From positions 1 through 37,527 of the forward strand of contig JAAYMO010000056.1 of the NCBI GenBank assembly GCA_012521375.1: DNA of 37,527 bases. The letters run 5' to 3'. Below, piece after piece: positions 305-15,670 of this stretch. The notes under the pieces are model-generated. The model saw only the letters and a program-made list of their open reading frames with translations. It ran no database searches and was not told the DNA's origin. Every line of letters begins with the position of its first letter. Positions within the stretch are counted from its first letter, which is position 1. This stretch comes from Clostridiales bacterium. Its GTDB lineage: Bacteria; Bacillota; Clostridia; Lutisporales; Lutisporaceae. The position numbers and the translations under genes were made by a program.

Positions 305-341
305 ATAATATCCCTAGATAACCAATATCTAGGGATATTAT
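305..341 (+). terminator. Hairpin terminator after rubrerythrin
   Basis: A perfect 16-bp inverted repeat (305-320 with 326-341) has a 5-nt loop and begins 12 nt after the rubrerythrin stop. Only a short T-rich stretch follows, so its strength is uncertain. Its last base abuts the -35 box of the next promoter. Confidence 0.6.
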
Positions 342-369
342 TGACATAGGGTAATAGATAGAATATAAT
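341..369 (+). promoter_or_regulatory. Consensus sigma-A promoter of the ABC-F leader
   Basis: TTGACA at 341-346 and TATAAT at 364-369 are separated by exactly 17 bp, which is a perfect vegetative promoter. The expected start of transcription is near 376. This gives a leader of about 240 nt before the ABC-F start codon. Confidence 0.88.
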
Positions 370-409
370 TTAGTTGCAAATATTTTGAAAGGAAGGTTTT
401 TAAGGAGCA

Positions 410-421
410 ATGAGAAACTAA
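410..421 (+). CDS. Three-codon upstream ORF (Met-Arg-Asn) in the ABC-F leader
   Basis: ATG AGA AAC TAA lies in the leader about 34 nt after the predicted transcription start. Its stop codon overlaps the left arm of the anti-antiterminator at 421-428. Upstream are two purine-rich segments, AAGGAG at 402-407 (only 2 nt from the ATG) and AAAGGAAGG at 388-396 (13 nt away). Neither spacing is ideal, so translation is plausible but not certain. Confidence 0.45.
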   Translation: MRN

Positions 422-584
422 TCCATTCTTTGCTTAATTCAATTATATCTAGCAATATCCTGCGATTAAGCTGGAGTGGATAAGTGTGCCCTTTTTTATG
501 CCTTCTTCTTTTATTTGATTCTATTGTTTTTGAATAGATATGTTTATCTATTATATTTAGAAAACATATATAAAATGCTCGCTT

Positions 585-616
585 ATCCTCTCCAGCATAT
601 ATGGAGGGGATTTTTT
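585..616 (+). terminator. Conditional terminator overlapping the ABC-F ribosome binding site
   Basis: A 10-bp stem (585-594 with 602-611, one G-U pair) with a 7-nt loop is followed by six T residues that run straight into the ATG. The right arm contains GGAGGGG, the ribosome binding site of the ABC-F gene. The left arm is shared with the antiterminator pairing. Confidence 0.75.
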
Positions 617-2251
617 ATGATAGTAGCCGAAATGAATGGAATAAAAAAATATTATAATGACAGGCTGATAATAAAAATTGATGACTTTAAAATATATAAA
701 AATGACAAGATTGGCATAGTAGGCATGAATGGTTCTGGAAAGACTACTTTCCTTAATATATTAACCGGAAAAATTCTACCTGATGAAGGGTTATCACGAA
801 TTTATGTAACCTATTCATATATAGAACAGTTGGAATCAGATAAATCGATAGATGTGGAAGGCTATATAGCCAGTAAGTTTAGAGTAAATAGTTTAAATAG
901 TAAAGGTCTAAGCGGTGGAGAGTTTACCCGACTTAAGATAGCTAAAGCTTTAGAGAAGAACAGTGAGTTTATCATAGGAGACGAACCGACCAGTAATTTA
1001 GATAAAGAAGGAATAGAACTGCTTCAAGAAGAGTTGATGGCCTTTGATGGAGCGATTCTGATAGTATCTCATGATAGGGAATTTTTAGATGCTGTTTGCA
1101 ATGGCATACTGGAAATTGAAAATGGAGAAGCAAAGCTTTATAAAGGCAATTATAGTAAATATAGACAAATAAAAGAGAATGAAATAAAGCAGGCTGAAAT
1201 TGAATACCAAAAATATATAGCGGAAAAGAAAAGATTAGAAGAAGCCGCAGTGAAGAAGAAAAATCAAGCAAAAGCCATAAGAAAAACACCTAAGAGGATG
1301 GGAAATTCTGAGGCTAGGCTTCATAAAACAGGAAGCCAGATAGCAAAAGCAAAGTTAGAAAGGCAAGTTAAAGCTATTGAGACTAGAATTAGCAAACTGG
1401 AAGTGAAGGAGAAACCTAGAAAACTGCCTGAAGTTAATGTGGATATACAAAAAATTACCCCACTTTATTGCAAGATAGTACTAAGTTCTGAAGGATTAGA
1501 TAAGAAATATGGGAATAAGATTATATTCAAAGGTGCTCAATTTAAAGTGTTTAATAATAGCAAAACTGCAATTATAGGCCCAAACGGAAGCGGTAAGACT
1601 ACTCTCATCAAACTTATTGTCAATGGTCATCCTTCAATTTATAGAGCCATTGGAGCTAAGATAGGCTATTTTAGCCAGGATATAAGCATTTTGGATGAAA
1701 GCAAAACATTACTGGAAAATATTTTGGAAAGCAGTATATATGATGAAACTTTTGTTAGAACTCTTCTCGCAAGACTTTTGTTTAAAAGAGAAGATGTCGC
1801 AAAAAATATTTTTTATCTAAGTGGGGGAGAAAAGGTAAAAGCTGCATTGGCAAAAATAATAACAAGTGATTTTAATATTCTGGTTCTAGATGAACCTACT
1901 AACTTTTTGGACATATATTCTATGGAAGCTGTAGAAGAAGCACTGATGGAATATAGAGGAACAGTTTTATTTGCTTCCCATGACAGAAGACTTGTTGATA
2001 ACATTGCAGATCATATAATATCTATAGAGAATCAAAAAATTGTATGTTTTCAAGGAACTTATCAGGAGTTCAGAAAAAAGAAGGATATTTCTTTAAAATC
2101 TAATGAGATATCTATGGATGAAATGATTCTTAAACATCGCATGGCAGAAATACTAGGGAAGTTGAGCATGCCATCCCAAAACGATGATATCGTGGCTTTA
2201 GACAAAGAATATAATGAAATTCTAGACAAATTGAGGAGGTTAAGGAATTAG
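617..2251 (+). CDS. ABC-F ribosome-protection ATPase, VmlR/CplR-like (PLS-A type resistance)
   Basis: This is a 544-residue cytosolic protein with two ATPase domains and no membrane segments, as in ABC-F translation factors. Domain 1 has Walker A GMNGSGKTT near residue 35, signature LSGGE near 97 and Walker B GDEPTSNLD near 122. A charged helical linker (about 185-280) contains KTPKRMGNSEARLHK and is the arm that enters the ribosome in resistance ABC-Fs. Domain 2 has GPNGSGKTT near 320, LSGGEKVKAALAKI near 400 and LVLDEPTNFLD near 423. The short first domain and the C-terminal helical tail (EILGKLSMPSQ) resemble Bacillus VmlR and clostridial CplR. These proteins displace lincosamides, streptogramin A and pleuromutilins from the ribosome. 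The ATG at 617 is chosen because GGAGGGG lies at 603-609; an in-frame GTG at 476 would translate the attenuator and is rejected. Confidence 0.87.
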   Translation: MIVAEMNGIKKYYNDRLIIKIDDFKIYKNDKIGIVGMNGSGKTTFLNILTGKILPDEGLSRIYVTYSYIEQLESDKSIDVEGYIASKFRVNSLNSKGLSGGEFTRLKIAKALEKNSEFIIGDEPTSNLDKEGIELLQEELMAFDGAILIVSHDREFLDAVCNGILEIENGEAKLYKGNYSKYRQIKENEIKQAEIEYQKYIAEKKRLEEAAVKKKNQAKAIRKTPKRMGNSEARLHKTGSQIAKAKLERQVKAIETRISKLEVKEKPRKLPEVNVDIQKITPLYCKIVLSSEGLDKKYGNKIIFKGAQFKVFNNSKTAIIGPNGSGKTTLIKLIVNGHPSIYRAIGAKIGYFSQDISILDESKTLLENILESSIYDETFVRTLLARLLFKREDVAKNIFYLSGGEKVKAALAKIITSDFNILVLDEPTNFLDIYSMEAVEEALMEYRGTVLFASHDRRLVDNIADHIISIENQKIVCFQGTYQEFRKKKDISLKSNEISMDEMILKHRMAEILGKLSMPSQNDDIVALDKEYNEILDKLRRLRN

Positions 2252-2366: not shown

Positions 2367-2966
2367 TTAAAAAGGATTCTTGCTGATGATCGAGCCTATA
2401 TTGTCAAGAAACAATTCCAGAAGCTCTTGATCAAACTGGCCTTTAGAGTCATTCATCATATTTAATGCTTCATCTATAGAAAATGCTTTCCTGTATGGTC
2501 TATCGGTAGTTAATGCATCAAATACATCACATATGCTTATTATTCTAGCTACCAGTGGTATTTCTTGTTTTTTTAGTTTCGTAGGATAGCCCTTTCCATC
2601 CCATCTTTCATGATGATAAAAGGCTGCATGTTGCATTTCTACAGGCATTAGAAATCTTTTCATAATATCATATCCCAATATGGAATGCTTTTTAATAATA
2701 TCAAATTCAACGATGTCCAAGGAGGTTTTTTTGTTAAGAAGGGCCAAGTCAACTTCGATTTTCCCGATATCGTGAAATAATCCAGAATAATACATCATAT
2801 TAGGGTCAATACCCGTATCTACAAGGTTATTAAAATGTTTCGAATATTCAGCCACCTTCAAGGAATGTTTATATGTATTATCATCAAATTTTAATATTTT
2901 TAGTAGTTTATCAATTTTTTTATAAAAGATATTTCCTGATTGTTCAGTTCTGCCTGTCTGATTCAA
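2367..2966 (-). CDS. HD-GYP domain cyclic-di-GMP phosphodiesterase
   Basis: This is a single-domain HD-GYP protein of about 199 residues. HDIGK, the HD metal pair, is followed by KKHSILGYDIM, YHHERWDGKGYP (the GYP motif) and DVFDALTTDRPYR. This family hydrolyses c-di-GMP to GMP, and no sensor domain is attached. The start is set at TTG 2966 because GAGGTGA sits 5 nt upstream of it. The longer ATG reading at 3038 has no ribosome binding site and lies inside the riboswitch terminator. Transcription comes from a consensus promoter at 3204-3232 and passes through a c-di-GMP-I riboswitch, so the enzyme's substrate probably controls its own removal. It is divergent from a GGDEF-EAL gene. Confidence 0.9.
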   Translation of the reverse strand: MNQTGRTEQSGNIFYKKIDKLLKILKFDDNTYKHSLKVAEYSKHFNNLVDTGIDPNMMYYSGLFHDIGKIEVDLALLNKKTSLDIVEFDIIKKHSILGYDIMKRFLMPVEMQHAAFYHHERWDGKGYPTKLKKQEIPLVARIISICDVFDALTTDRPYRKAFSIDEALNMMNDSKGQFDQELLELFLDNIGSIISKNPF

Positions 2967-3023
2967 CGGATTCACCTCAAGACAATTGCTACTTTTATTA
3001 TCATTTATTTTAATATGTTTATT

Positions 3024-3060
3024 AAAATAAAAAGCCATGGCGCTATATAAACCATGGCTT
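3024..3060 (-). terminator. Expression-platform terminator of the c-di-GMP riboswitch
   Basis: On the minus strand a 9-bp perfect stem (AAGCCATGG with CCATGGCTT; plus positions 3052-3060 and 3032-3040) with an 11-nt loop is followed by TTTTTATTTT. It lies just downstream of the aptamer and just upstream of the HD-GYP coding region. A possible extension of aptamer helix P1 (CUUAA with UUAAG) would take the first bases of the terminator stem, which hints that ligand binding turns expression on. That last point is inference. Confidence 0.82.
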
Positions 3061-3072
3061 AAATGCCTTATT

Positions 3073-3152
3073 ATGGCAACCCGACTGTCATAGTTATAAC
3101 ACCTTAGACTCGTGGCTTTGCGTCCTTACCTTTCGATAAGTTTGCCTTTATC
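3073..3152 (-). promoter_or_regulatory. Cyclic-di-GMP-I (GEMM) riboswitch aptamer
   Basis: Read on the minus strand, the segment carries the signature elements of the GEMM-I aptamer in order. These are AAAGGCAAAC, a GAAA tetraloop in ATCGAAAGGT, GGACGCAAAGCCACG with the conserved ACGCAAAGCCAC core, CTAAGG, and GGGTTGCC as the 3' closing strand. This aptamer binds c-di-GMP. It is followed by a terminator and then by a c-di-GMP phosphodiesterase gene, which agrees with the assignment. Confidence 0.95.
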
Positions 3153-3203
3153 ATATAGCTTAAGATTGTTTTAAAAATTCTAAGTTTTCATGCCAACATT
3201 TAC

Positions 3204-3232: not shown

Positions 3233-3495
3233 CATATGTTTATTTTTGTAGTTTAGATTATAATATAGAGAAAAATGTTATTTGGATTGAAAAAATGATT
3301 TCTCAACAATATTTCTCAAAATTTCTTATAAAATGCATATACATTATTTTAATAATAAAAAGATTGTGGAAAGTCTTCTAATTTAGTAGAATAAAAATAA
3401 CAATATTCTAAATGGCAAAGATATACAGTGCACCATTATAAAAAATATAGAAAATTGTGTTTGTTCACTGCATAATAATGGGGGATGAAAATTTT

Positions 3496-6063
3496 ATGTA
3501 TAAAGAAGGCTTTTTTAAAGATGTCACTGAAATGCTGCCAGATCCTATTTTTGCTATTGATAAAGATGGTAAGATAATATTATGGAATAGCGCTATGGAA
3601 AAGCTTACTAAAGTAAAAAGACAGGAAATATTAGGGAAAGGCGATTATACTTATTCTGAAATATTTTATGGATATAAAAGACCCACGCTGGCGGATTTTG
3701 TTTTAAAACCAGACGAAGAACTGGAAAGAAAATATTACATAAATTTTAGAAGAAATGCTGATGGCGCTGTTGAGGGAGAGGCCTATAGTTCAAAGTTAGA
3801 TTATTATGACTGGGGAAAGGCAGTGCCTATTTTTAATGATGATGGAGATATAGAAGCGGTAATATCTATATCAAGAGATATAAGTAGAAATATCAAGTAC
3901 CAGAAACAACGGGATATTTTGTTGAAAAGATATGAGACTTTGTTCGTCAATAGCCCTGATGCTATCGCATGCTTTGATAAGGAGCATATTATTTTTGATG
4001 TAAATGAAAGTTTCTTAAGGATATTTGGTTACACCAGAGAAGAGTGTATAGGCAAAAATTTAGATGATTTGGTAGTACCGAAAAGCCAGAGAGAAGAAGC
4101 GGTAAAGAAAACAGATGAATTGTTTGAAAAAGGCATAGTAGATGTTGAAGCTGTAAGATATACAAAAACAGGCATCCCTATTGCAGTTAATATAAGAGCT
4201 ATACTTATGAAAATAGATAATGAGATTTTAGGTGGCTATGGTATATATACAGATGTATCAGAAAAAGTGAAGTATAAAGAGGAGCTGGAATCTGCCAATC
4301 TTGAGCTAGAAGCCACTGTTGAACAGCTTATGTCCAATGAAGAAGAATTAAGAGCTCAATATGATGAGATACAAAAATATTCTGAGATTAATGAAGAATT
4401 GAAACAGAAATATGAGATCGCTATAGAAGCCACAGATAGCTTTATATGGGAGATAGTAATCAATAAAGGGACAATAAATTTTTCTAAGAACTTTGTGGAT
4501 TTGGTGGGTGCTGATGCAATAAAAAAAGAAAATATCTATGAGATAATTAAAGAAATTGTTCATGAGGAAGATAGAGATAAATTGATAAACGAAATAAAAA
4601 AATATCAAAATGAGATGATAGAGGAGATAGATACGCAAATAAGAATTATAGACAAGAACAATAACATTCATTGGTATTTAATAAGGGGAAAAGGTATAAA
4701 AAATAGAGAAGGAAAAATAAATACATTACATGGTGTATTAGTTGAAATAACTAGAATAAAAAAACAAGAACAGTTTATTAAATTTTTAGCAGACCATGAT
4801 CCCTTAACAGGATTATATAATAGAAGAAAATTTAGGGAGATATTGGATAATGAATTGGCAGACAACAAAAAAGGAGCACTTTTCTTATTAGATATTGACG
4901 ATTTTAAAAATATTAATGATATACTAGGTCATGTCTATGGAGATGAATTGTTAAGGCGTTTTGCTAAAGTTATAAATGATATGGCAAATGAAAATATAGT
5001 TGCTTTTCGGTTCGGAGGAGATGAGTTTCTAATTCTAATTAAGGAAGAAGAATTTCAACAGTTAGTTAGTTTCGCTGATAGGCTGGTAAAAGCTCTTAAG
5101 GATAGAATTGTTGTAGACTATTTTGAAAACAATTTAACTGTAAGTATGGGCATAGTTCAGTTTCCTAATGACGGAGACACCATTGATGAATTGTTGATAA
5201 AGGCTGATATTGCAATGTATAATGCAAAGAAAGCTGGCAAGAATAGATATTTCTTATTTGATGAACAAATGAAACTTAATTTTAATTATAAGATTAGCAT
5301 AGAAAACATGTTGAGAAAAGCTCTGAAAAAAGAAGCCTTTTTCATAGTGTATCAGCCAATAGTGGAAACAAGAACGGGTAAAGTTTCTTCCTTGGAAGCA
5401 CTTTTAAGAATTCGTGACAGTCATATAACACCAGATAAATTCATCCCTATAGCAGAAGAGACAGGATTAATATTGCCAATAGGAAAATGGGTGATAAAGG
5501 AAGTTGTAAAACAGATAAGTAGATGGGCTAAGCGAGGTTATGAATCTTTGCCAGTAGCCATTAATTTATCGCCAAGACAGTTTTATGATGCGAGTCTTAT
5601 TGATTATATGAAAAAAGTATTAGAAGAGTATGATGTTGATCCCTCATTGCTGGAAATAGAGATTACTGAAAATGTTTTTGCAGAGAAAAGACATGAAACC
5701 GTAGCCATTCTCAATAGGCTGAAAAATTTGGGAGTAAGAATTTCTCTAGATGATTTCGGGGCAGGATATTCCTCGTTGAACTATCTCACCTTTATGCCTA
5801 TAGATAAAGTAAAGTTGGATAAAACCCTTAAAGATAAATTCGTTGAATTTGAAAACATAAAAATTATGGACTCCTTGATTGCTCTTGTACACGGATTGAA
5901 CTTAAAAGTGGTCACAGAAGGAGTAGAAGAGATAGAAGAGTATGAGATGATGAAGAGAGCCGGAAGCGACTTTCTTCAAGGATATTTATTTAGCAAGCCT
6001 TTGGCAAAGGCGGATGTAGAGAAGATATTTTATAAAAACTACAACGAACTGTTGAAAAAATAG
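3496..6063 (+). CDS. PAS-PAS-PAS-GGDEF-EAL cyclic-di-GMP signalling protein
   Basis: This is a protein of about 855 residues with no membrane segments. A PAS domain (about 5-135, MLPDPIFAIDKDGKIILWN) is followed by a second (about 145-265, FVNSPDAIACFDKEHIIFDVN), a coiled coil (about 265-310) and a third PAS-like segment ending in HGVLVEITRIKKQEQ. Next come GGDEF (DPLTGLYNRRKF, FRFGGDEF) and EAL (EALLR, NLSPRQF, EITEN, DDFGAGYSS, TEGVEE). The catalytic residues of both output domains look intact, so it could make and degrade c-di-GMP. No RxxD inhibitory site is seen just before GGDEF, so product inhibition of the cyclase may be absent. ATG 3496 follows GGGGGATG; in-frame GTG 3457 and ATG 3478 are less likely. 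It is divergent from the HD-GYP gene. Confidence 0.9.
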   Translation: MYKEGFFKDVTEMLPDPIFAIDKDGKIILWNSAMEKLTKVKRQEILGKGDYTYSEIFYGYKRPTLADFVLKPDEELERKYYINFRRNADGAVEGEAYSSKLDYYDWGKAVPIFNDDGDIEAVISISRDISRNIKYQKQRDILLKRYETLFVNSPDAIACFDKEHIIFDVNESFLRIFGYTREECIGKNLDDLVVPKSQREEAVKKTDELFEKGIVDVEAVRYTKTGIPIAVNIRAILMKIDNEILGGYGIYTDVSEKVKYKEELESANLELEATVEQLMSNEEELRAQYDEIQKYSEINEELKQKYEIAIEATDSFIWEIVINKGTINFSKNFVDLVGADAIKKENIYEIIKEIVHEEDRDKLINEIKKYQNEMIEEIDTQIRIIDKNNNIHWYLIRGKGIKNREGKINTLHGVLVEITRIKKQEQFIKFLADHDPLTGLYNRRKFREILDNELADNKKGALFLLDIDDFKNINDILGHVYGDELLRRFAKVINDMANENIVAFRFGGDEFLILIKEEEFQQLVSFADRLVKALKDRIVVDYFENNLTVSMGIVQFPNDGDTIDELLIKADIAMYNAKKAGKNRYFLFDEQMKLNFNYKISIENMLRKALKKEAFFIVYQPIVETRTGKVSSLEALLRIRDSHITPDKFIPIAEETGLILPIGKWVIKEVVKQISRWAKRGYESLPVAINLSPRQFYDASLIDYMKKVLEEYDVDPSLLEIEITENVFAEKRHETVAILNRLKNLGVRISLDDFGAGYSSLNYLTFMPIDKVKLDKTLKDKFVEFENIKIMDSLIALVHGLNLKVVTEGVEEIEEYEMMKRAGSDFLQGYLFSKPLAKADVEKIFYKNYNELLKK

Positions 6064-10807: not shown

Positions 10808-11239
10808 ATGGAAAAAAACTGTGATATGAGAGAACTAGATAAGATATCCTATGAATTACATAAGAAGCTTTTCGCTCAAATAACAGAAGGTATTGATATT
10901 CCTGTTACAAATACTCAAATATATATGCTGTTTTATATAAGGGCTCACGGCGAATGTATGGTAAGTGAAATAGCCAACTATTTAGGAGTTACTCTTGGGG
11001 CAGTAACAAGTCTGGTTGACAGACTTCATGATTTTGGTCTGGTGAACAGAGTCAGAAGTGAAATAGACAGACGTCTGGTGATAATTAAACTTAGCGAAAA
11101 AGGAGAAGAGTTGCTGAGGAAAATAGATATAAAACGGAAAGAGATATTCGATTATTATACAAAAGACATAGATAAAAAGGAAATTATATATCTTAGCAGT
11201 ATTATGGAAAAAATAGTCATGAAAATTCTCAATTCATAG
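10808..11239 (+). CDS. MarR-family transcriptional regulator of the RND efflux operon
   Basis: This 143-residue winged-helix protein has the recognition region MVSEIANYLGVTLGAVTSLVDRL (about 55-77) and the wing DFGLVNRVRSEIDRRLVIIKLSEKG (about 78-102). These are flanked by dimerisation helices. MarR proteins usually repress their own operon and release DNA on binding a phenolic or lipophilic ligand. The gene starts after AGAGGGTGA. The efflux adaptor starts 52 nt downstream, so it almost certainly controls that pump. A palindromic candidate operator lies just upstream. Confidence 0.92.
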   Translation: MEKNCDMRELDKISYELHKKLFAQITEGIDIPVTNTQIYMLFYIRAHGECMVSEIANYLGVTLGAVTSLVDRLHDFGLVNRVRSEIDRRLVIIKLSEKGEELLRKIDIKRKEIFDYYTKDIDKKEIIYLSSIMEKIVMKILNS

Positions 11240-11291
11240 AGGCATGGAAGGATACAAGTATAAATGCAGATGGGTTAGGAGGATACGTATA

Positions 11292-12536
11292 ATGAAAAGA
11301 AGACTGTTGCTTATTATACTAATTATACTTAGCATAAGCATTAACATAGGATGCAATAAAGAGGAAACAAAGGATACTACAGCACAAGTTTTAGACCAGC
11401 CTATAGCAGTGGAAGTGGTGGAAGCCACTGTAGGCTCAATTGAATCGGTGATAAGCTATAGTTCCAGAGTAAAGCCAGCTCAGGAGATAATGGTGATGCC
11501 TAAACAGCCAGGGAAGGTTGTCAAGGTGAATTTTGAAATAGGCCAAAGAGTGAATAAGGGACAAATATTATTTGAAATGGATAAAGTAGATGCGCAGCTT
11601 CAGTTGAATCAGGCAGCTGCAGCTGTTGAAATGGCAGAAATAAATCTAAAGAGGTTATCAGGTAGCACTTATGAACAGCAGATGCTGCAGTTAAAGTCTG
11701 CTGTGGATTCTGCCAAAATAAATTATGATGATGCAAAAACAAATTTCGAGACTATAAAGACTTTATATGAGGCTGGGGCAGAGACCAAATTTAATTTGGA
11801 CAGAGTTCAATCCCAGCTAGAGCTTGCAAAACAACAATATGAGACTGCTAAAGCAAACTTGGATTTAACTGAGCAAAAAAGCTACAAAGAAAACATTGAG
11901 GCAGCACAAGCCCAGCTATCTCAAGCTAAGGCTTCATATGAAATTGCAAAAAGTGTAGTGGACAATATGAGTGTTAAAGCACCTATAAGCGGAGTTGTAT
12001 CGGCTATAAATGTAAAGGAAGGAGAGTTTGCCAGTGTTTCTAGCCCTTCCTTTATAATCATTGATGACTCAAACTACATTATTGAAGTTAATGTAAATGA
12101 GGATGTTATTGGTAAGGTTCAATTAGGAGATAAAGTAAAGATTTATATAAGGGCAATATCTGAAGAACCTTTATGGGGAACTATAACAGCAGCTGCACCT
12201 TCAGCAGATGCCATGACACAAACATATCTGATTAAAATCGCTTTGGAAAATCCACCTGATACTGTAAAAGGAGGCATGTTTGCCGAGGTATACATAACTT
12301 TGAATAGAGCAGAAAATTGTATCTTGATACCTATGTCTTCAGTTATGGAGGAAGAAGGCAACAAATATATATTTGTTGTCAAAAGTGGCAAAGCTGTTAA
12401 AAAACAGATTACCACTGGCATATTTAATGATAAGGAGATACAGGTCATAGACGGTATTGATGAGGGTGAAATTGTAGTAGTTAAGGGGCAGGATTTCTTA
12501 AAAGATGAATCAACAGTAGTGATTTCGGATAAATAA
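11292..12536 (+). CDS. RND efflux adaptor (membrane fusion) lipoprotein
   Basis: This 414-residue HlyD/AcrA-family adaptor begins with a lipoprotein signal (MKRRLLLIILIILSISINIG then Cys21). A lipoyl half-motif (KPAQEIMVMPKQPGKVVKVNFEIGQRVNKGQILFEMD) is followed by a long coiled-coil hairpin rich in Gln and Ala (about 100-215). The second lipoyl half (VKAPISGVVSAINVKEGEFA) and the beta-barrel and membrane-proximal domains follow. In a Gram-positive cell it would sit on the outer face of the membrane next to the RND pump. ATG 11292 is chosen because AGGAGG lies 9 nt upstream; the in-frame ATG at 11244 would bury the signal sequence. Confidence 0.92.
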   Translation: MKRRLLLIILIILSISINIGCNKEETKDTTAQVLDQPIAVEVVEATVGSIESVISYSSRVKPAQEIMVMPKQPGKVVKVNFEIGQRVNKGQILFEMDKVDAQLQLNQAAAAVEMAEINLKRLSGSTYEQQMLQLKSAVDSAKINYDDAKTNFETIKTLYEAGAETKFNLDRVQSQLELAKQQYETAKANLDLTEQKSYKENIEAAQAQLSQAKASYEIAKSVVDNMSVKAPISGVVSAINVKEGEFASVSSPSFIIIDDSNYIIEVNVNEDVIGKVQLGDKVKIYIRAISEEPLWGTITAAAPSADAMTQTYLIKIALENPPDTVKGGMFAEVYITLNRAENCILIPMSSVMEEEGNKYIFVVKSGKAVKKQITTGIFNDKEIQVIDGIDEGEIVVVKGQDFLKDESTVVISDK

Positions 12537-12547
12537 GAGGTGTGAAA

Positions 12548-15500
12548 ATGAGAATACATGAAATATCTGTAAAAAGACCTATAAGCATATTGATGTGTGT
12601 TTTGATAGTTCTATTGCTCGGTGTTGTATCTTTTTCCAAGATACAAGTTGATTTAATGCCAGATATCAGTTTTCCTATAGCAGTAGTATCAACAAGCTAC
12701 TCAGGTGTTGCGCCTCAAGAAATTGAAACCATTGTGACAAAAAATATTGAAAACGCCATAGCTACGGTAAATAATATAAAATCTATTCAATCTATTTCCA
12801 GTGAAGGGCACTCTATAGTCATTGCCGAGTTTAATTCAGGCACTGATATGGATTTTGCGACTTTGGATATGAGAGAAAAGATCGATATGATAAAAGGTTA
12901 TCTTCCAGATGAGGTAGAGGATCCCTTAGTAATAAAAATAAATCCTAATATGCTTCCCATAGTGACTATAAGTGTAACTGGTGATTTGGACGACATAACA
13001 CTTAAACGTTTTACAGAGGAGAACATAAAGCCTAGACTAGAGAGATTGTCAGGGGTAGCTTCAGTAAGCGTTTCAGGGGGGAGAACCAGGGAAATACAAG
13101 TTAATGTAGATCCTAATAAGGCTGCAGGATATGGTGTATCATTAAACCAGGTAATGACTGTTTTGCAGACTGAGAATCTTAACCTGCCAGGCGGCACAGT
13201 AGAATATGGGGATAAAAAACTATTGGTGAGGAGTACTGGTGAATTTGAAAATATTGAACAGATAAAAAATATACCCATAGTTATGCCTAATGGAACAATA
13301 TTATATATCCGTGATATAGCAGAAGTGGTTGATACTAATAAGTCTATTGATTCCTACAGCAGGACAAACGGAAAAAACAGCGTAAGTTTAAGCGTCCAGA
13401 AACAAACAAACGCAAATACTGTTAATGTTACAAGGGCTGTAAAGAATGAAATAGAAAAGATATCAAAGGAACATCCAGATTTAAATGTTGATATAGTTTT
13501 TGACCAGGGTGAATATATAGAAATGTCTATAAGCAATGTGGCAGACAATGCAATAACCGGCGGCATACTTGCTGTGCTGATACTGTTCATTTTTCTAAAA
13601 AATATAAGGAGCACATTGATTATTGCTACAGCTATACCTATTTCCATTATTTCTACTTTCGTATTAGTATATTTTGCTGGTATAACAATAAATATAGTAT
13701 CCTTAGGTGGCCTTGCCCTTGGTGTAGGGATGTTGGTGGATAACTCTATAGTAGTCTTAGAAAATATATATAGACACAGAAATGAAGGATATAACAGAGT
13801 TGAAGCTTCATTATTGGGAACACAGGAAGTAGGCAATGCCATCCTAGCTTCTACATTTACTACTATAGTTGTATTTTTACCTATAGTTTTTACAGAAGGA
13901 ATGGCCGGCGAGATATTTAAGGAACTGGCTTTGACAATAGCTTTTTCATTGTTGGCTTCATTGATAGTAGCTTTGTCATTTATACCTATGTTAAGTTCAA
14001 AATTTCTCAAGGTTGCCACACCTCATGAAAGCTTAAGAAATAAATGGCTGGATAAAATATTTTATAAATGGGATCAGGTCATTAACGGTATAGATCAGAT
14101 TTATCGAAAAGTATTGATTTGGGTTTTGAAACATAAGGGGAAGACACTAGCTATAGTTTTTTCAATATTCGTATTAAGCTTGTTGTTTTTACCTTTTATT
14201 GGTTCAGAATTTTTTCCTTCAATGGACCAGGGCATGTTTAGTGTAGATATTGAGATGCCAAAGGGAAGCCTGATAGAAAACACCAATGAAGTAGCAAAAG
14301 AACTAGAGAAGTTACTTTTTCAGATTCCTGAACTAGAATCTATGCATGTAAGTGTAGGTGGATCTGATGTTTTATCTGGGATAGGAGGTTCCAGCGGAGA
14401 CTCAGCCACTATAAGCGTAACTTTGAAATCTATAGAGAAAAGGGAAAGAAGCACATCAGAAATTGTGGAAGAAGTGCGTAAATCGGTAAAAAATATTGCT
14501 GGAGCGGATATAAAGGTAACGGATTTATCTACAGGCTTTGGAAGCATGACCAGTTTTGACCTGGTGTCTATACAGATTAGTGGACCTGATTTAGAAACTT
14601 TAGAGAATATATCAATAGATATAGAGAAAATTGTTGCAGAGACAGATGGTACCAGACAAATTGCATCTAGTATTTCTGAAGGAAGACCGGAAGCCCAAAT
14701 TTATGTTAATCGTGATAAGGCATCAGCCTATGGATTATCAACCACACAGGTAGCATCAGTTATAAGGACTGCTGTAGAAGGTCGGGTAGCTACTACTTAT
14801 AAAGTCAATGGAAATGAGGTAGATATTAAGGTACAATACCCGGAAGATAAAATTAATACATTGGAAAAACTAAGATCAGTTTCTATATTATCGCCATTGG
14901 GTATACAGGTGCCTTTAATAGATATAGCTGAAATAAAGGTTGAGAGAGGTCCAACAAGCATAACCCGAGCAGATCAGGAGAGATATGTAACGGTAACCGC
15001 TGATGTGTTTGGCAGAAGCTCCGGGGATGTAAACGAAGAATTGAGAAGGAAACTAGAAGAATATAGATTGCCTGATGGCTACTCCATAAAGTTTACTGGA
15101 GAAAATGAAATGATGATAGAGGCTTTTGAGGATCTTACATTAGCATTAATATTGGCAATAATTCTAGTGTACATGGTCATGGCAATACAATTTGAATCCT
15201 TACTTCATCCCTTCACAATAATGTTTTCGGTTCCTGTTGCATATTCTGGTTCTATATTTGGATTGGCTATCACTAACAAGCCCCTTAGCGTTCCGGCATT
15301 TATAGGAGTGATCATGTTGGCTGGGATAGTTGTAAACAATGCTATTGTGTTGGTAGATTATATAAATATTTTAAAAGGAAGAGGTATGGATACAGAATCC
15401 GCAATCATTAAGGCAGGTCCTACTAGGCTTAGACCTATTCTAATGACAACATTGACTACTATACTAGCTTTGATACCATTAGCTCTGGGATTTGGGGAAG

Positions 15501-15670
15501 GTGCAGAAGCAATGGCACCAATGGCTATAGCGGTTATGTTTGGTCTGGTAACTTCTACTTTGCTAACATTGCTGATAGTACCAGTAATATACTATAGTTT
15601 TGATAATCTCTCAATGAAGATTAAAGGTAAGATAAAAAGAGATAAGTTACAATCAAATGTAAATTCATAA
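12548..15670 (+). CDS. RND-family efflux transporter, SwrC/AcrB-like
   Basis: This protein of about 1040 residues has the two-repeat RND layout. There is one N-terminal membrane helix, a large extracytoplasmic loop, a helix bundle, and then the same again (12 membrane segments expected). Motifs are GVAPQEIETIVTKNIENAI, GMLVDNSIVVLENIYRHR in TM4, where a single Asp serves proton relay as in Gram-positive SwrC/YerP, and AGIVVNNAIVLVDYIN in TM10. Proton-driven export of lipophilic compounds, drugs or self-made lipopeptides is the family role. ATG 12548 follows AGAGGTG. Eleven nucleotides separate it from the adaptor gene. No outer-membrane channel gene is present, as expected for a monoderm. Confidence 0.93.
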   Translation: MRIHEISVKRPISILMCVLIVLLLGVVSFSKIQVDLMPDISFPIAVVSTSYSGVAPQEIETIVTKNIENAIATVNNIKSIQSISSEGHSIVIAEFNSGTDMDFATLDMREKIDMIKGYLPDEVEDPLVIKINPNMLPIVTISVTGDLDDITLKRFTEENIKPRLERLSGVASVSVSGGRTREIQVNVDPNKAAGYGVSLNQVMTVLQTENLNLPGGTVEYGDKKLLVRSTGEFENIEQIKNIPIVMPNGTILYIRDIAEVVDTNKSIDSYSRTNGKNSVSLSVQKQTNANTVNVTRAVKNEIEKISKEHPDLNVDIVFDQGEYIEMSISNVADNAITGGILAVLILFIFLKNIRSTLIIATAIPISIISTFVLVYFAGITINIVSLGGLALGVGMLVDNSIVVLENIYRHRNEGYNRVEASLLGTQEVGNAILASTFTTIVVFLPIVFTEGMAGEIFKELALTIAFSLLASLIVALSFIPMLSSKFLKVATPHESLRNKWLDKIFYKWDQVINGIDQIYRKVLIWVLKHKGKTLAIVFSIFVLSLLFLPFIGSEFFPSMDQGMFSVDIEMPKGSLIENTNEVAKELEKLLFQIPELESMHVSVGGSDVLSGIGGSSGDSATISVTLKSIEKRERSTSEIVEEVRKSVKNIAGADIKVTDLSTGFGSMTSFDLVSIQISGPDLETLENISIDIEKIVAETDGTRQIASSISEGRPEAQIYVNRDKASAYGLSTTQVASVIRTAVEGRVATTYKVNGNEVDIKVQYPEDKINTLEKLRSVSILSPLGIQVPLIDIAEIKVERGPTSITRADQERYVTVTADVFGRSSGDVNEELRRKLEEYRLPDGYSIKFTGENEMMIEAFEDLTLALILAIILVYMVMAIQFESLLHPFTIMFSVPVAYSGSIFGLAITNKPLSVPAFIGVIMLAGIVVNNAIVLVDYINILKGRGMDTESAIIKAGPTRLRPILMTTLTTILALIPLALGFGEGAEAMAPMAIAVMFGLVTSTLLTLLIVPVIYYSFDNLSMKIKGKIKRDKLQSNVNS

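Follow-up and report, generated by a model that had tools for sequence, protein, structure and literature searches.

A CplR/Rli53-type attenuator with a three-codon upstream ORF probably controls an ABC-F resistance gene in a Lutisporaceae bacterium

Introduction

Ribosome-mediated attenuation has been described for several ABC-F resistance genes. In C. difficile cplR, PLSA drugs induce expression through ribosome stalling on an upstream open reading frame (uORF); mutation of the uORF start abolishes induction in reporters, a broken terminator stem leads to constitutive expression and removal of the poly-U tract alone leaves regulation by translation (PMC10201436). The Rli53 leader of Listeria monocytogenes lmo0919 (VgaL) contains a three-amino-acid uORF and an anti-antiterminator/antiterminator pair, and displays lincomycin-dependent read-through (PMC8079631, a review), while the B. 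subtilis vmlR leader combines a uORF encoding MIN, an anti-antiterminator, an antiterminator and a terminator with a translational layer (PMC9226507). A previous sequence-only reading of the DNA analysed here had offered vmlR and lmo0919 as precedents, and both do work alike (PMC9226507, PMC8079631); the closest precedent, which it did not name, is the cplR leader CDIF630nc_084 (PMC10201436).

The DNA, termed the window, is contig JAAYMO010000056.1 (37,527 nt; assembly GCA_012521375.1) from a Clostridiales bacterium of the family Lutisporaceae. Its parts, their energetics, conservation and covariation make it very probable that an ARE1-like ABC-F resistance gene is controlled by a CplR/Rli53-type ribosome-mediated attenuator, in which the stalled ribosome, the drug that stalls it and the 3' end produced in vivo are the presumed elements.

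Results

The ABC-F protein

The gene at 617..2251 (+) encodes a 544-residue ARE-ABCF (CplR/Vga-like) ribosome protection protein. It scores 500.7 bits against the NCBIfam equivalog ribo_prot_ABC_F (cut-off of 380), and the NCBIfam families that it matches best are CplR (587 bits, cut-off of 780) and Vga (568 bits, cut-off of 725). The score of 587 remains below the 780 bits of CplR proper (NF043038), as do the scores of all six genus members, and the window protein is classed by sequence as a relative of CplR, not a called CplR. The nearest solved structure is 7nhl, a lincosamide-streptogramin A resistance protein, with Lmo0919 (7nhn) also matched, and the likely resistance spectrum comprises pleuromutilins, lincosamides and streptogramin A.

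Protein relatives (about 40-70% identical) come from many families within the window's class and phylum. The order-level search added no genomes to the 22 of the family search, and a single-protein scan of named genomes returned distant ABC-F proteins only. In the tree, the window protein groups with L014, L015 and L086; L023 and L024 are its next neighbours. L086, which is 68% identical and preceded by an identical MRN uORF, belongs to a genome of another family (G782) and is nested in the window's clade; horizontal transfer is possible.

Promoter, uORF and helices of the leader

A sigma-70-type promoter at 341..369 (+) comprises TTGACA (341-346) and TATAAT (364-369) separated by a 17-nt spacer. 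With 12/12 matches it is as perfect as previously claimed, it is the sole perfect site within 1-2700, and transcription is expected to start at ~376. Promoter-like sequences are also present in relatives L015, L019 and L022. The uORF, ATG AGA AAC TAA at 410..421 (+), encodes Met-Arg-Asn-stop as had been read earlier, and its Shine-Dalgarno (SD) region extends over 393..407 (+). The best SD-like word, AGGAG (403-407), is unusually close to the uORF ATG, just 2 nt away, and the word kept in relatives is AAGG(T), located slightly upstream (393-397 in the window).

The three pairings of the sequence-only reading are all present, although that reading missed the second stem of the first hairpin and gave too short an antiterminator. 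The anti-antiterminator is formed by 5' arms within 421..438 (+) and 3' arms within 465..481 (+): the lower stem pairs 421-428 (ATCCATTC) with 474-481 (GAGTGGAT) through 8 pairs, including one G-T, and the second stem pairs GCTTAAT (432-438) with ATTAAGC (465-471). The uORF stop ends at 421, so that, as had been noted, the first arm starts on its final base. The antiterminator comprises a 5' arm at 470..489 (+) and a 3' arm at 577..596 (+), the latter overlapping the terminator 5' arm. Its core, 470-484 (GCTGGAGTGGATAAG) with 582-596 (CTTATCCTCTCCAGC), has 14/15 pairs and one T-T mismatch, and the full helix has 18 pairs and 2 mismatches. The intrinsic terminator at 585..616 (+) consists of the stem 585-594/602-611 and a T run to 616. 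The ABC-F gene SD, GGAGGGG at 602..608 (+), is located 8 nt before ATG 617 and inside the 3' arm 602-611, which confirms that the terminator covers the ribosome binding site. The T run abuts ATG 617, leaving no space for another hairpin ahead of the start codon. Rfam contained no family for the leader at gathering thresholds.

These elements suggest a switch of three states. Without drug, ribosomes would clear the three-codon uORF, 421-438 would pair with 465-481 and block the antiterminator, and the terminator (585-611) would both end transcription at ~612-616 and hide GGAGGGG. With a pleuromutilin, lincosamide or streptogramin A as the presumed stalling drug, a ribosome stalled on the uORF, the start being the likeliest site, would cover 421-425 or beyond; 470-489 would then pair with 577-596, the terminator would not form, transcription would continue and the ribosome binding site would be free.

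Equilibrium folding of unmasked 376-616 gave probabilities of 0.99 for the anti-antiterminator and 0.97 for the terminator, while masking the uORF to 425, 428, 431 or 434 gave 1.00 for the antiterminator and 0.00 for the terminator. The shortest mask kept bases 394-425 single-stranded, roughly the footprint of a ribosome at the uORF start. When the RNA stops at 600, too early for the terminator, the antiterminator is favoured (0.89) with no mask at all, and the outcome in the cell therefore depends on timing. Equilibrium folding takes no account of co-transcriptional kinetics or of pausing by RNA polymerase, factors of importance in vmlR (PMC9226507); pausing as documented there may matter for this leader too.

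Homologous leaders

Most relatives' leaders display the same order of parts, AAGGT, a mini-ORF of two to five codons, a TCCACT-like arm, a GAGTGGATAGT-like arm, TATCCTCTCC, GGAGGGG with a T run, and the start codon directly after. The mini-ORF stop adjoins arm 1 in 29 of the 35 leaders with a recognisable antiterminator, against 4.6 expected by random placement.

The position of the terminator bears on whether attenuation acts on transcription only, the uORF-controlled terminator doing the work and SD hiding contributing little. L017 and L018 carry the same terminator ~60 nt ahead of the start codon, away from the SD, and seemingly dispense with the translational layer. Against this, GGAGGGG lies wholly within the terminator 3' arm in the window and likewise in most relatives, and the C. 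difficile poly-U mutant revealed that translational attenuation alone is enough for repression (PMC10201436), which makes a transcription-only switch unlikely in the window. L101 has the same leader as L017 and L018, its terminator at the same distance and clear of the gene's SD, and the three are apparently a transcription-only variant.

The mini-ORF peptide, in turn, bears on amino-acid sensing, in which the uORF would report charged Arg or Asn tRNA in the manner of classical leader-peptide attenuators. The Arg and Asn codons do directly precede the uORF stop, but the uORF has no codon runs, the regulated gene encodes a ribosome protection factor and not a biosynthetic enzyme, and the peptide varies freely among relatives that share these RNA arms (MFN, MKK, MRN, MRI, MKN, MYN, MKH and others; MRN itself recurs in L067, L083 and L086). 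Since the peptide is not conserved, this very improbable reading was rejected.

The MAFFT whole-leader alignment misplaced the window's arm 2, as loop lengths differ, and arm 3 therefore served as the anchor of the registers in which helices were compared. The covariance check in homologous leaders, which the earlier reading had proposed, was passed by both the antiterminator and the first hairpin, own partners pairing better than swapped ones. In a fixed 14-pair register with 31 distinct arm pairs, own antiterminator partners scored 22.2 and swapped partners 14.9 +/- 0.76 (maximum 18.4 in 5000), where arms chosen by complementarity bias the result toward own partners; pairs 10-12 of this register exchange between G-C, A-T, C-G and T-A. 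An unanchored test of 73 leaders, in which each swapped partner was given the same search space, yielded z 11.7 (0/2000). For the first hairpin, own partners scored 18.7 and swapped partners 16.55 +/- 0.37 (0/5000). The central T-T mismatch of the antiterminator is retained in 22/31, presumably because the arm 2 base must also pair with arm 1 and the arm 3 base with arm 4. A simple ungapped search revealed no convincing antiterminator in more distant relatives (e.g. L039-L050), and the claim is therefore restricted to the closer group.

A scan of 391 genomes for the anti-SD terminator pattern identified 8 sites, 6 before ABC-F genes (one of these broken), one without a matching gene and one before an EF-G-like gene, so that no second type of regulated gene is claimed. 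In L105 (G098) the pattern lies ~150 nt ahead of an EF-G-like gene, with no uORF visible. The leader of L099 (G376) looks intact, with uORF MRI, and the ABC-F gene behind it breaks off after ~60 codons. In the tandem ABC-F genes L046 and L057 (G260), a separate terminator-like stem covers the SD at the start codon of each gene.

Chance expectation

The antiterminator complementarity score (582-596 against the upstream leader) is 34.0, compared with 15.8 +/- 2.5 in dinucleotide shuffles, and the folding energy of the whole leader is -65.8 kcal/mol, compared with -47.0 +/- 4.1 when shuffled in the same manner (z -4.6, 0/200 as low). That an ordinary terminator and chance complementarity explain the leader, with no regulation at all, is hardly credible: taken alone, the lower anti-antiterminator stem of 8 bp is equalled in 170/2000 shuffles, and promoter-like sites overall show no excess over shuffles, but the antiterminator score was reached in 0/2000, part order is conserved, and the covariation, with compensatory changes in distant relatives, already contradicts this reading. 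With the lower stem of the first hairpin unexceptional and the antiterminator beyond shuffles, the case rests on the antiterminator and the comparison of leaders. Sequence, folding, conserved layout and compensatory changes thus support the original proposal, a three-state attenuator that depends on the uORF and acts on the ARE-ABCF gene at the levels of both transcription and translation.

Apparent AUU starts in a sister clade

While the window itself has AUG, 14 relatives carry ATT at the very position of the others' ATG, immediately behind the terminator T run. They make up the greater part of a 16-member subclade (support 92/91) and come from several families. Eleven cases are clear (L030, L064, L065, L067, L070, L072, L073, L074, L089, L090 and L092, with unread bases upstream of L089) and three are ambiguous (L087, L088 and L093), as initiation is possible at TTG, the second codon in L087 and L088, or at GTG, the fourth in L093. 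In 4 of the 8 ATT relatives examined, an in-frame stop lies 15 nt upstream with no usual start between. On the downstream side, the nearest ATG, GTG or TTG comes 48-102 nt away, at or close to the first ATP-binding motif, which leaves AUU as the likeliest start codon of these genes. The distribution of ATT on the tree requires about three changes, and a single origin with losses is possible. Retention of AUU across several families might, tentatively, reflect a third control layer, weak IF3-discriminated initiation, in addition to transcription and translation attenuation. A literature search, which is weak evidence given partial journal coverage, found no report of an AUU start in such genes. 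Gene callers limited to ATG, GTG and TTG would misplace the start of these relatives, which point to a possible extra layer of control.

Other loci in the window

A c-di-GMP-I riboswitch (87 bits) at 3072-3156 (-) precedes an HD-domain (PF13487) gene at 2367-3038 (-), and beside them lies a divergent PAS-GGDEF-EAL gene at 3457-6063 (+). Together, these are read as a c-di-GMP turnover locus. The region 10808-15670 (+) encodes, consecutively, a MarR regulator, an HlyD-type adaptor and an AcrB-type RND pump, within an apparently clostridial genome.

Comparison with known systems

Through the homologous leaders, the cplR switch, already proven by experiment, extends to a broader range of families, and two helices of a switch of this type now have quantitative covariation. 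The catalogue of uORF peptides (MFN, MKK, MRN, MRI, MKN, others) renders the question of uORF sequence versus inducing drug (PMC10201436) directly testable.

The window contains the hallmarks of a CplR-type dual attenuator, a very short uORF at the first arm, mutually exclusive helices and an SD-sequestering terminator at the start codon. In common with C. difficile cplR (CDIF630nc_084, PMC10201436), it has a three-codon uORF starting Met-Arg, a 5' hairpin at the uORF, a predicted antiterminator, and an SD inside a terminator that ends at the start codon, and CplR is the best-matching NCBIfam family of its gene. The two leaders differ in the uORF, MRN in the window and MRI in C. difficile (consensus MR[I/M]), and in length (~240 and 212 nt, respectively). 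By its published description, Rli53/lmo0919 shares the three-amino-acid uORF and the anti-antiterminator/antiterminator arrangement, but it belongs to another class of bacteria and its gene is a more distant relative (324 bits). The vmlR leader shares the uORF, anti-antiterminator, antiterminator, terminator and translational layer, and its MIN uORF is also found in L015 of the window's genus. In vmlR, however, the SD is hidden by SL-4, a hairpin of its own that follows the terminator; the window has no room for one before the start codon, and there the terminator itself hides the SD. Rather than a new principle, what the window contributes to these known systems is an MRN uORF together with a new lineage.
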